From positions 2,480,001 to 2,544,000 of the forward strand of contig NZ_RAPV01000001.1 in assembly GCF_003610295.1 (NCBI RefSeq): 64,000 nucleotides of DNA, in the 5' to 3' direction. A program made the translations under genes and the position numbers. Positions 37,243 through 40,799 of this stretch are shown one piece after another. This DNA is from Paraburkholderia sp. BL23I1N1 (lineage in GTDB: Bacteria; Pseudomonadota; Gammaproteobacteria; Burkholderiales; Burkholderiaceae). Under the pieces are notes generated by a model that had not been told where the DNA came from, ran no database searches, and saw only the letters and a list, made by a program, of their open reading frames with translations. The stretch's first letter is position 1. The number at the start of each line of letters is the position of its first letter.

Positions 37243-38646
37243 ATGACGCGTTTCAGCTTTCGCCGGGGCAGCCGTTCACCAACGGTCGTCGGCGATATTG
37301 CCGAGCAAGCCGGCAAATTGGGAATTGAAATCTGCGACGTATCGGGCCACGTCGACGAAGTTGCCTCACGCGTACAGCACCAGGCGCAGGTGTGCCGCGC
37401 ACTGCGCGAATCCGCCGCGCAGACGCTTGCGGGCAACCATCGCATTGCCACTGCCGCACGCGCAATGCGCAGCGTCTCGGCTGAAGCCGCTACTGGCGTG
37501 CAGGCGTCACAGCAGACGTTGGAGGCATCGCTCGCCGACATCCACGGGTTGGTGGAAGGCGTGACGGTGATCGAGAGCCAGATTGGTGCATTGCGTAGCG
37601 CATTGGCCCATGTGAGCCGCGTTTCCGAGGAGATTTCGCTGATTGCCCGCCAGACGCATTTGCTGGCCCTGAACGCCGCGATCGAAGCCGCGCGCGCCGG
37701 CGATTCCGGCAAGAGTTTCGCGGTGGTGGCGGCCGAGGTGAAGAACCTGTCGGCAAAGACCGCGCAGGCGACCGGCCAGATCGAGACGACGCTGGCTCAG
37801 CTCACTCAGCAGACCGAACAGTTGATCAACGAGGGCTCGGTGAACACGGCGCGGGCGCATCGCGTACGCGAAGGCACGCGCAAGATCGGCGACGTCGTGC
37901 ATGCGACGGGCGATGCGATTACGCAGCTCAACGATGAGGCTGGGCAGATCGCTGCATTGACAGGCGAGATCGAAACGCAATGCAACGGGCTTGAGGCGAA
38001 GGTGCTGGAGATAGCGAGTGGCGTCGAAGATTCGAGCGAGAACTTTGTCCAGGCGAAGGACCGGCTGGGGAATTTGCTCGGCGTGTCCGAGACGTTGATC
38101 GAGCTGACTGCGGCAACGGGGGTCGAGACGAGCGATACGCGGTTTATCGACGCTGTGCAACGGGCTGCGGCCGCGGTGAGCAAGGCATTTGAAACGGCTG
38201 TTGCCCGGGGCGAAGTGTCGATTGAGGATCTGTTCGATCAGCACTATGTGCCCGTTGCGGGGAGCAATCCGGCTCAGTTCACTACCCGGTTTACTGCTTT
38301 TACCGATCGGGTGTTGCCCGCTATTCAGGAGCCCTTCCTCGGACTCGATCCACGTGTTGCGTTTTGTGCTGCTGTCGATGTGCGTGGTTATCTGCCTACG
38401 CATAATCTGAAGTTTTCGTTGCCGCAGCGCGAGGACGTGGTCTGGAATATGGCTAATTGCCGGAACCGGCGGATGTTCGATGATCGTACCGGGATTGCGG
38501 CTGCTTCGCATGTTAAGAAATTTTTGTTGCAGACGTATCGGCGTGATATGGGTGGCGGGCAGTTTGTTTTGATGAAGGATGCGTCGGCGCCTGTGGTTGT
38601 CGCCGGGCGGCATTGGGGTGGGGTTCGGATTGGGTATAAGGTTTGA
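37243..38646 (+). CDS. Soluble methyl-accepting chemotaxis protein
   Basis: A 467-residue MCP without membrane segments, hence cytoplasmic. The signalling hairpin tip is [32 protein letters not shown] (about residues 145-175), flanked by long coiled coils. The C-terminal domain (about 320-467) contains [22 protein letters not shown] and [17 protein letters not shown], a region found at the C-terminus of some soluble MCPs, probably a sensor. It would signal to CheA/CheW from inside the cell. The start has AAGGAGA upstream. The last 600 bp shift to T/G-rich codons toward the gene-end repeat that follows. Confidence 0.85.
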
Positions 38647-38711
38647 AGGTTTTTTTGCCTGCCCGGCGCTTGGTTGTTTGCCTGTGGCGCTGGCCTTTCC
38701 TTGTTTTGTTA
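38647..38711 (+). repeat. Gene-end repeat, copy 3, truncated by the IS110-family insertion
   Basis: Begins 3 nt after the MCP stop. It carries GCCTGCCCGGCGCTTGG and GGCCTTTCCTTGTTTTGTTA in the sense orientation, matching the first part of copies 1 and 2. The match stops at 38711, where the full repeats continue GTGGTCTATTAGCG. The remaining half is missing. Confidence 0.8.
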
Positions 38712-39840
38712 CCGTGATGAACCAGACTTCCTCTTCCGTTTATATCGGCATCGACGTCAGCGGTAGCACCCTCGACGTTGCCATCCACGACACGACCGAA
38801 CATTTCAGTGTCGACAATGAAACCGTCGCCATCGACCAGCTGGTCCAGCGTCTGATCACGCGGGGTCCCACCCTGATCGTCATGGAGGCCACCGGCAAGC
38901 TCGAACTTGCCGTGCTCAAGGCGCTCTGTCAGGCCGGCCTGCCCGCTGTCGCGGTTAATCCCCGGCAGGTGCGCGACTTTGCCAAAGCCACCGGCAAACG
39001 GGCGAAGACAGACCGCATCGACGCGTTCGTCATTGCCCATTTCGCCGCCGTCATCAAACCCGTCGTGCGTCCACTGAACGATGTGCAGACCGAGCAGCTG
39101 CAAGCGCTGCTGCTGCGCCGTGCCCAGCTCATCGACATGCTCGTGGCCGAGAAGGCCCGCCTGGAGCGCGCACACGCCGCGGCGAAGGAAAGCCTCAATG
39201 ACCACATCAAATGGCTCAAACAGCAGCTCACCGTCGCGGACAAGGACATCGATTCGTTCATGCGCTCTTCGCCCGCCTGGCGCCAGAGGGAAGATCTGCT
39301 GCGCTCGGTGCCCGGTATCGGCCCCGGTGCCGCGGCTACGCTGATCGCCTTCATGCCCCAGCTCGGCTCGCTGAACCGCCGCGAGATCGCCGCCCTTACC
39401 GGCGTCGCGCCGTTCAATTGCGACAGCGGCAAGCACACCGGCAAGCGTCGCATTCACGGCGGTCGTGCCATCGTGCGGCGCGCGCTTTACATGGCCTGCA
39501 TACCTGCGCTGCGCTTTAATCCGGTGATCAGGGCCTTTTACGACCGTCTGCGCAAGGCTGGCAAACCGTTCAAGGTGGCCATGACCGCGTGCATTCGCAA
39601 GCTCATCGTGACGCTCAACACCATGGTCCACAACTCGACCCCATGGAGACCATCGGCTGACTGACTTCCCGCATGGCTGAGCCGCCTGTGGCGCTTTAAC
39701 CCAGGCACTCGCGGCCCCCGTGCCCACCCTTGTGCAGGTCACTCAATCGTGCAGGTCGCGAGGACGACTCGCGCGCGCAAAATGCTCCCTGACGCTGACA
39801 ATTTCTATCTTGAGTAACTGCTCGCCGCTTGACTTCCAAT
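38711..39840 (+). mobile_element. IS110-family insertion; left edge near 38711, right edge uncertain
   Basis: The left edge is inferred from the abrupt loss of repeat similarity at 38711, only 6 nt before the recombinase ATG. The right edge lies somewhere between 39665 and the next repeat copy at about 39848; no matching flank was found, so the given end is an upper bound. With almost no 5' non-coding DNA, the long non-coding end is the 3' one, which resembles the IS1111 subgroup layout. Confidence 0.6.
38717..39664 (+). CDS. IS110-family DEDD recombinase
   Basis: A 315-residue recombinase. The N-terminal RuvC-like DEDD domain shows [17 protein letters not shown] (first Asp near residue 12), VMEATG (Glu near 57), and KTDRIDA (two Asp near 98-101). 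A coiled coil (about 120-180) leads to the C-terminal Tnp domain with [18 protein letters not shown] and [24 protein letters not shown], including the conserved serine region. The frame is intact. IS110-family recombinases use an RNA from their non-coding end to choose donor and target. Confidence 0.92.
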
Positions 39841-39847
39841 ACGGTTG
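39665..39847 (+). ncRNA. Candidate bridge-RNA region of the IS110-family element
   Basis: About 180 bp of non-coding DNA directly 3' of the recombinase gene. It contains the direct repeat GTGCAGGTC (39732-39740 and 39749-39757) and a hairpin CGCGAG-GACGA-CTCGCG (39757-39773). In IS1111-type elements the guide (bridge) RNA is encoded at this end. No experimentally known RNA sequence was matched, so this is positional inference only. Confidence 0.3.
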
Positions 39848-39980
39848 CTTCTCTTTGCGGCAGGCAAAGAGAAGTGAGTGCCGCCCCGCACAGGGGCAAC
39901 GCTAATAGACCACTAACAAAACAAGGAAAGGCCAACACCATAAAAACACAGACAAACAAAGCGCCGAGCAGGCAAAAAAC
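39848..39980 (-). repeat. Gene-end repeat, copy 2, behind potI
   Basis: Contains the 76-bp core (39878-39953) shared with copy 1 at 75 of 76 positions and a perfect 11-bp stem CTTCTCTTTGC (39848-39858) with GCAAAGAGAAG (39864-39874), loop GGCAG. In sense orientation it starts directly after the potI stop codon. It is inverted relative to copy 3 behind the convergent MCP gene, with the IS110 element between them. Confidence 0.88.
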
Positions 39981-40799
39981 CTATACCGCCATAACAGCCC
40001 TCTTCCTCTCAGCCCGCTGCATAAAATAGTTAGCCAAAACAACCCCAACCGTAACAACAGCAATAAACAGCGTAGCCAACGCATTCATCTCAGGATTCAA
40101 CCCAAGCCGAACACGAGAGAAAACCACCAGCGGCAGCGTAGTCGACCCAGGCCCTGACAAAAACGCCGACAAAACCAGATCGTCGATCGACAAGGTAAAC
40201 GACAACAACCACCCAGAAACCAGAGCCTGCGAAATCAACGGCAACGTAATAAAGAAAAACACCTTCAGCGGCGTAGCCCCAAGATCAAGCGCAGCCTCCT
40301 CAAGAGAAGGATTCAACTCCTTCACACGCGACTGCACGATGATGGCTACATAGGAAATACACAACATCACGTGCCCGATCCAGATCGTGAAAACGCCACG
40401 CCCGGCAGGCCATCCCAACCACTTCGCCATTTCGATGAAAAGCAGCAGCAGCGAAATCCCCTGAATCACCTCGGGAATCACCAGCGGCGCATTGATCATC
40501 CCGGTGTAAAGGGTAAAACCACGAAACCGCCCCATGCGGGCCAACACAAACCCGGCCCACGTGCCGATAATCACCGAAGCAAACGCCGTCAACAACGCCA
40601 CACGCAACGACAACCACGCTGCCGCAATCAACTCGTCGTCCTGCAACAACGCCGCATACCAGCGCGTAGAAAAGCGCGTCCACACCGTGACCAGTTGCGA
40701 TTCGTTGAACGAATACACAATCAGACTCACGATCGGAATGTAGAGAAACAGAAACCCAATCCCCAACGCAATGAACTGCAAAATCCGGTTCGGTTTCAT
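39981..40799 (-). CDS. potI: Putrescine ABC transporter permease PotI
   Basis: A 272-residue inner-membrane permease of the spermidine/putrescine class with six hydrophobic segments. The EAA motif is in EEAALDLGATPLKVFFFITLPL (about residues 165-186), which contacts the ATPase. FLFLYIPIVSLIVYSFNES is the typical N-terminal helix. The ATG overlaps the potH stop by one base (TGATG type). About 700 bp at the 3' end have T/G-ending codons rather than the C-ending codons used in the rest of the operon. Confidence 0.92.
   Translation of the reverse strand: MKPNRILQFIALGIGFLFLYIPIVSLIVYSFNESQLVTVWTRFSTRWYAALLQDDELIAAAWLSLRVALLTAFASVIIGTWAGFVLARMGRFRGFTLYTGMINAPLVIPEVIQGISLLLLFIEMAKWLGWPAGRGVFTIWIGHVMLCISYVAIIVQSRVKELNPSLEEAALDLGATPLKVFFFITLPLISQALVSGWLLSFTLSIDDLVLSAFLSGPGSTTLPLVVFSRVRLGLNPEMNALATLFIAVVTVGVVLANYFMQRAERKRAVMAV

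Follow-up and report, generated by a model that had tools for sequence, protein, structure and literature searches.

Three genes of the LpxL, MCP and potI types lose C and gain T and G toward their stop codons where they end at copies of an intergenic repeat, and the question raised by this locus is what imposes the shift. They lie in a 64,000-nucleotide stretch of Paraburkholderia sp. BL23I1N1 (the window; G000:C1:2480001-2544000, G000 being our label for this 9.12-Mb genome). Each half of the repeat is associated with a polar, strand-specific change in substitution in the approximately 1 kb 5' of its core sequence, on the strand reading into it, and the direction of the effect is independent of gene orientation, replication direction and the presence of a partner copy. 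This polar, repeat-anchored, strand-specific substitution bias is the finding, the repeat itself being an ordinary interspersed palindrome. The window features concerned are listed below, where C3, T3, G3 and A3 are the base fractions at third codon positions on the coding strand.

37168..38646, plus strand: MCP-type gene (PF00015), C-poor and T/G-rich at its 3' end; C3 is 0.06 in the last 50 codons and 0.32-0.55 beyond 250 codons
38647..38711, plus strand: half-repeat at MCP, with a T/G-rich module (38647-38691) and the core GGCCTTTCCTTGTTTTG (38692-38708), reaching as far as the TTA at which the IS110 element is inserted
38712..39847 (right end approximate), plus strand: IS110-family insertion in the repeat, with the transposase at 38717-39664 (PF01548 and PF02371)
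39848..39980 (left limit approximate), minus strand: half-repeat at potI in the opposite orientation, with module 39934-39980, core 39917-39933, hairpin GCCCCTGTGCGGGGC, then a palindrome
39981..40799, minus strand: potI-like permease gene (PF00528) with a biased 3' end, C3 0.04 in the last 50 codons; used for an orthologue series
25860..26119 (inner limit approximate), minus strand: single half-repeat at LpxL, with module 26072-26119 and core 26055-26071
26120..27064, minus strand: LpxL-type acyltransferase gene (PF03279), whose 3' end lies on the core side and is biased (C3 0.08 over the final 50 codons)
23844..25358, plus strand: convergent neighbour of LpxL on the non-core side of the single half-repeat, unbiased and showing the one-sidedness

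The original prediction had the LpxL, MCP and potI genes ending at the repeat with a shift toward the stop (26120, 38646 and 39981), and this was borne out. It had also put the MCP end at about 13% C and 40% G, close to the 14% C and 39% G of its last 146 nucleotides, and had described window genes away from the repeat as unshifted: over their last 80 codons, only these three of the 51 called genes fall under a C3 of 0.2, and the lowest value among the others is 0.24.

The repeat and the gradient beside it

In a half-repeat, a T/G-rich module some 50-60 bp long is followed by the core, after which there are typically TTAGTGGTCTATTAGCG, the hairpin GCCCCTGTGCGGGGC and additional palindromes. 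The core has 107 matches in the genome at up to two mismatches, against 1 for a reversed-pattern control. Fifty-three stretches fetched around cores form, together with the window, 54 regions of 1.10 Mb. The 104 matches in these regions came to 90 cores once CTGTG was required downstream and neighbours were merged; none lies inside a called gene, indicating interspersed, palindromic, intergenic copies. Sixty-six cores stand in 33 facing pairs, of which 23 have a spacing of 516-861 bp, and 24 cores are single. The paired copies are long imperfect palindromes, with inverted arms whose best stretch is 77-260 bp at 80-95% identity in the 25 pairs examined. At L045, near 9946, the sequence immediately before the core is a long series of GTCT units, and the T/G-rich module seems expandable.

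Gene calls in the regions (814) come from a purpose-made codon-usage caller and fall into 48 test genes, whose ends lie 25-308 bp upstream of a same-strand core, 621 controls, ending more than 2 kb from any core, and 145 in neither class. Over the last 20 codons, test and control genes have a C3 of 0.069 versus 0.349, a T3 of 0.338 versus 0.137, a G3 of 0.541 versus 0.394 and an A3 of 0.053 versus 0.120. C3 in the test genes climbs to 0.375 at 300-320 codons from the stop, and control C3 is steady at 0.35-0.43. The contrast between repeat-flanked and control gene ends on which the original prediction had staked itself is present gene by gene: among genes of at least 150 codons, mean C3 is 0.125 in 47 test genes and 0.378 in 559 controls (area under the curve, 0.986; Mann-Whitney p=1.5e-28). 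The 232 genes in 20 further stretches of the same genome, not picked for the repeat, have a mean C3 of 0.376.

Averaged over the 90 cores, T+G on the core strand is 0.50 at -3 kb, 0.60 at -600 bp and 0.75 in the last 100 bp, and an exponential fit yields a length of 594 +/- 32 bp with an offset of 0.499. The gradient extends to about 900-1000 bp, so that the shift first described over 400-700 bp is real and longer than was thought. One core had too little flank; of the 89 measured for strength, 85% exceed the 99th percentile of 3000 random stretches in flank T+G, and the weakest flanks are those of L069 (0.51), L083 (0.53) and L047 (0.55). Beyond the partner core the mean profile has the opposite bias, paired copies being biased on both sides. 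The protein ends are shifted too: relative to control, the last 80 residues are poorer in H (0.61), Q (0.82), T (0.83) and P (0.88) and richer in V (1.19), F (1.16) and Y (1.21). A similar profile is found at 30 loci of four other genomes, some of which are two ends of one pair and hence not independent, with a mean T+G of 0.597 at -700 to -60 bp and values above 0.58 in 63%.

The repeat might be a marker that inserts into DNA already rich in T and G, which we regard as very unlikely. For potI, 80 loci of named species were collected, and a tree of 80 tips was made from the gene itself and 79 loci, with L112 left out. The 18 tips with the repeat have a mean C3 of 0.077 and T3 of 0.372 in the last 80 codons, and the 62 without it 0.330 and 0.101, respectively (C3 range, 0.05-0.475), so that repeat-free orthologues are mostly unbiased. 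The marker explanation is helped by the fact that no insertion into still-unbiased DNA was seen and that a few repeat-free potI orthologues (L108, L129 and L155) are also biased. However, L108 and L129 look like deletion or IS scars, and the present-day substitution rates near the repeat, described below, still lead to a T/G-rich, C-poor stationary composition. Of the other low-C tips counted as lacking the repeat, L149 keeps the repeat without its core, and L155 has no recognised trace. The expectation that orthologues lacking the repeat lack the shift thus holds for most of them, with a few exceptions. The same behaviour was seen in LpxL and three other genes, compared across as many as 30 genomes, with the antiporter gene (cpa) the least clean. 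In two potI orthologues, L109 and L112, the gene is followed by a short hairpin that includes the first part of the core (GGCCTTTCCT...GGAAAGGCC); the half-repeat may have arisen from such a hairpin, or the hairpin may be what is left of one.

The genus scan found at least one core match at up to two mismatches in 115 of 144 genomes, this one included, with counts of 0-235; since the reversed-pattern control itself gives 0-3 matches per strand, a count of a few in a genome may be chance. Among 136 genomes of 24 other genera, from a family sample of 150, there are two single core matches, each with 1 mismatch, and the repeat itself was not found in them. No Rfam family reached its gathering score in the window, L034, L077 or L060. 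In the collection of papers searched, none contains any of four sequence strings of the repeat, and no described repeat was recognised as the same.

The repeat may also be a target for insertion sequences (IS), given the IS110 element in the window and other DNA after GCCCCTGTGCGGGGC at four loci. The IS110-family element (38712-39847) begins directly after TTGTTTTGTTA within the repeat; it is itself unbiased, with a C3 of 0.40-0.56 in the bins shown, and provides a natural control for recent arrival. At L033, L049, L059 and L065, other DNA begins right after the hairpin GCCCCTGTGCGGGGC with AATGCTCTCAACTTAAGCC, beside an open reading frame of about 1.0-1.1 kb.

Gene orientation, replication and partner copies

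In the window, the biased genes all read into the repeat, and the original prediction took the effect to be strand-specific and to follow transcription. The first part stands and the second does not. Among cores with a gene within 400 bp (23 of the 90 have none in the fetched stretch), the gene is directed into the repeat in 40 cases and away from it in 27, and the core strand loses C in both; the T/G gain falls on the strand reading into the repeat, whatever the gene orientation. On their own coding strand, the 27 genes reading away carry the reverse bias, with a C3-G3 of +0.286 versus +0.046 in 533 controls (p=6e-15) and an A3-T3 of +0.079 versus -0.033 (p=8e-14). In 10 long genes reading away, the part near the repeat differs from the far part (p=0.004), and Pfam domains were found in 9 of 10 checked genes of this orientation.

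These genes bear on explanations by transcription, whether by R-loops, by exposure of the coding strand where genes end, or by selection on mRNA 3' ends, which we consider hardly credible. Within about 600 bp, the bias is indeed stronger in genes reading into the repeat than in those reading away, but beyond 600 bp the C loss is nearly equal, core-strand C at 600-800 bp being 0.274 in both groups. Neither R-loops nor selection on the mRNA end, both offered by the original prediction, finds support, since genes whose transcription leads away from the repeat share the repeat-strand bias; the transcription and R-loop reading was rejected on the 27 genes.

Replication fork direction, assigned from GC skew for the 62 cores on contig C1, is without effect (T+G of 0.612, n=31, versus 0.614, n=31; p=0.94), also within pairs (n=21, p=0.88), and a replication-fork barrier was rejected on this equal bias for both directions. 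The skew along C1 (6.98 Mb) is positive to about 2.3 Mb, negative to 3.75, positive to 5.5 and negative to the end, resembling two joined complete origin-terminus cycles, either a fused chromosome or an assembly join.

A partner copy is not needed either. Flank T+G is 0.621 at paired and 0.608 at single cores (p=0.29), and core spacing has no effect. Single half-repeats are biased on one side: in 12 of them T+G is 0.618 on the core side and A+C is 0.517 on the far side. These are 12 of the 24 single cores, the rest having a partner-like match or lying near the end of a fetched stretch; the cut was uneven, as the window core at 26071 was kept and L046 dropped, though both have a match with 5 mismatches within 100 bp. 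The LpxL half-repeat of the window has no facing partner core within 4 mismatches, and its convergent neighbour is conserved whether or not a genome carries the repeat. The neighbour is in reach at 20 of 30 loci, which were counted. In the 9 genomes with the LpxL-facing half only, LpxL has a C3 of 0.08 and a T3 of 0.44, and the neighbour is unbiased at 0.28 and 0.11; in the 10 genomes without the repeat there, the values are 0.26 and 0.21 for LpxL and 0.23 and 0.21 for the neighbour. The sole genome with a facing second half at LpxL, G030, has an A+C of 0.65 beyond the second core.

One-sidedness weighs against a rival that paired copies might seem to invite, namely, that they are long imperfect palindromes prone to breakage, with both ends resected and the mirrored single strands mutating in a kataegis-like manner. 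This is improbable in our judgement. The inverted arms of paired copies and the opposite bias past the partner core speak for it, and there is a precedent in yeast, where mutation is raised on either side of inverted repeats, up to 8 kb from them (PMC3681665). But only one side is biased at the 12 single half-repeats and in the 9 genomes at LpxL, and the bias is as strong in single as in paired copies and unaffected by core spacing. In Escherichia coli, chronic cleavage of a 246-bp palindrome carried a cost of 0.6% per generation and gave no rise in rifampicin-resistance mutation, in an assay that ignored flanking DNA (PMC4213011); about 100 strong break sites would therefore be costly. The two-ended break was initially favoured and was lowered once single half-repeats proved one-sided.

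Substitution spectrum and a putative tract at the repeat

Substitutions at four-fold sites were reconstructed by parsimony for 4 genes in 14 ingroup and 3 outgroup genomes, comparing 0-140 with more than 320 codons from the stop. The near/far rate ratios (95% limits) are raised for C>G (3.95; 2.59-6.03), G>T (2.44; 1.47-4.05), C>T (2.14; 1.60-2.87) and T>G (2.10; 1.16-3.80) and not raised for G>C (0.92; 0.63-1.32), T>C (0.70; 0.48-1.04) and G>A (0.65; 0.45-0.94). With cpa excluded, the contrast is larger for C>G, C>T and T>G. Changes per four-fold site number 1.68 near and 1.14 far, about 1.5-fold. The near rates predict a stationary composition of C 0.18, T 0.20 and G 0.53 (observed 0.20, 0.23 and 0.53), and the far rates C 0.42, T 0.15 and G 0.33 (observed 0.43, 0.09 and 0.44). 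The near-rate prediction lies close to the observed values, so the process acting locally is a different one and is still going on. The spectrum favours a locally different mutation process on one strand, and a mixed model with fixation bias fits too. The C-to-T change on an exposed strand that was originally suggested accords with the strand-specific loss of C, but C-to-T alone is insufficient, as C>G, T>G and G>T are raised as well.

The bias could also lie in fixation and not in mutation, T and G being favoured on the repeat-facing strand, either by selection for GT-rich single strands that suit the recombinase or by biased gene conversion through G.T wobble in heteroduplex. RecA prefers GT-rich DNA, and changes from T/G to C/A are somewhat lowered (T>C and G>A) while C>T and C>G are raised. 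Pure fixation bias, however, does not give T>G and G>T both more than 2-fold raised together with a roughly 1.5-fold total change, G>C is unchanged and no motif is enriched. We regard this explanation as unlikely.

The reading that we prefer, although we hold it tentatively and at somewhat less than even confidence, is a repair or recombination tract bounded at the half-repeat, which would act as a Chi-like or other polar site; it stays close to the recombination tracts set off by the repeat that the original prediction had mentioned. A tract of DNA repair or recombination would stop at the half-repeat, and the strand with its 3' end toward the repeat would repeatedly become single-stranded or be resynthesised, over about 0.6 kb on average. 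The exposed strand would gather C>T, C>G, G>T and T>G changes, the complementary strand being degraded and replaced. The half-repeat might thus be a strong Chi-type, or other polar, entry or stop site for the processing of breaks or gaps. RecBCD turned at Chi acts in a polar manner 5' of the site, on the 3'-ended strand, with decay over distance and indifference to transcription. The polarity, range and strand seen here match this behaviour, which is why a Chi-type site is proposed; Chi-RecBCD is the closest known machine, likened here by geometry only, and a RecC-family gene is present in the genome.

Several observations weigh against this reading. No octamer stands out in the biased flanks, so that a Chi motif or another octamer as the selected unit was rejected; GCTGGTGG occurs 126 times outside repeats in the genome versus 120 expected, and may not be the Chi of this genus. 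For RecBCD, an average tract length of some 0.6 kb seems short, and T>G is unexpected from cytosine deamination. The mixed model, with about 1.5-fold mutation plus a T/G fixation bias, also fits the rates, so that they do not separate mutation from biased fixation. Some contrasts are weaker than hoped: independent pairs with and without the repeat on the potI tree go in the expected direction in 7 of 8 cases (p=0.07), because several of the tips without the repeat look like recent losses retaining some bias; the bias within about 600 bp is weaker in genes reading away; and the G030 neighbour gene, more than 1 kb off, has a mild shift over the 78 codons read (C3 0.19, T3 0.15, G3 0.58). At cpa, at least 6 genomes without a near core have a middling C3 of 0.20-0.25.

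More broadly, the repeat might be a polar mutator whose half-copies direct one-sided, strand-specific tracts of repair or recombination. Such tracts would rewrite third codon positions, and less so amino acids, in any gene within the next kilobase; a genome rich in the repeat would have about 100 such places, fixed in position, with the effect building up as species diverge. Taken as a whole, we judge this proposition evenly balanced.

Comparison with known systems

Local mutation in bacteria is usually ascribed to replication, transcription or sequence context. In many species of this genus, the presence of a repeat copy is predictive: on one side only, and for about 1 kb, substitution is altered two- to four-fold in a strand-specific manner. 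The repeat-free orthologues and one-sided copies serve as built-in controls. We know of no described bacterial repeat that puts a one-sided substitution bias on neighbouring genes. The bias serves as a natural record, outside the laboratory, of a repair or recombination tract, and analyses of codon usage, phylogeny or gene prediction may be misled by it at many gene ends.

Tracts formed by Chi with RecBCD or AddAB are alike in their polar, one-sided action 5' of the site, on the 3'-ended strand and with decay, seen here in composition only; they are unlike in that no Chi octamer is enriched here, the core is rare and the tract is about 0.6 kb. To our knowledge, Chi has not been reported to leave a compositional footprint. 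Kataegis and break-associated mutation, as described for yeast inverted repeats (PMC3681665) and for mutagenic break repair in E. coli (PMC5542668), share the excess of changes beside a fragile or recombinogenic site. The yeast inverted repeats act on two sides and in laboratory time (PMC3681665), whereas the bias here is one-sided and was built up over speciation.

Repetitive extragenic palindromic (REP) sequences and bacterial interspersed mosaic elements (BIME) likewise have many interspersed intergenic palindromic copies with IS insertions, but the present repeat is much longer and has no link to a RAYT-like gene. We know of no effect of REP sequences on the composition of neighbouring coding DNA. 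The following gene was considered in this connection.

G000:C1:80252-80542: Y1-transposase-like (RAYT-like) gene; no repeat around this copy

A Y1 transposase match occurs in 143 of the 144 genus genomes, repeat-free ones included, mostly as a single weak match in an open frame of about 240-280 amino acids. RAYT was rejected as a partner enzyme, as the repeat copies neither flank nor track the Y1 gene. A non-autonomous transposon (MITE) would be expected to have terminal inverted repeats, a target-site duplication and a parent transposase; of these, inverted ends were observed in the paired copies.

Finally, the strand asymmetry left by replication (GC and TA skew) resembles the present bias in the gain of G and T on one strand; it differs in that the bias at the repeat is local and independent of fork direction.

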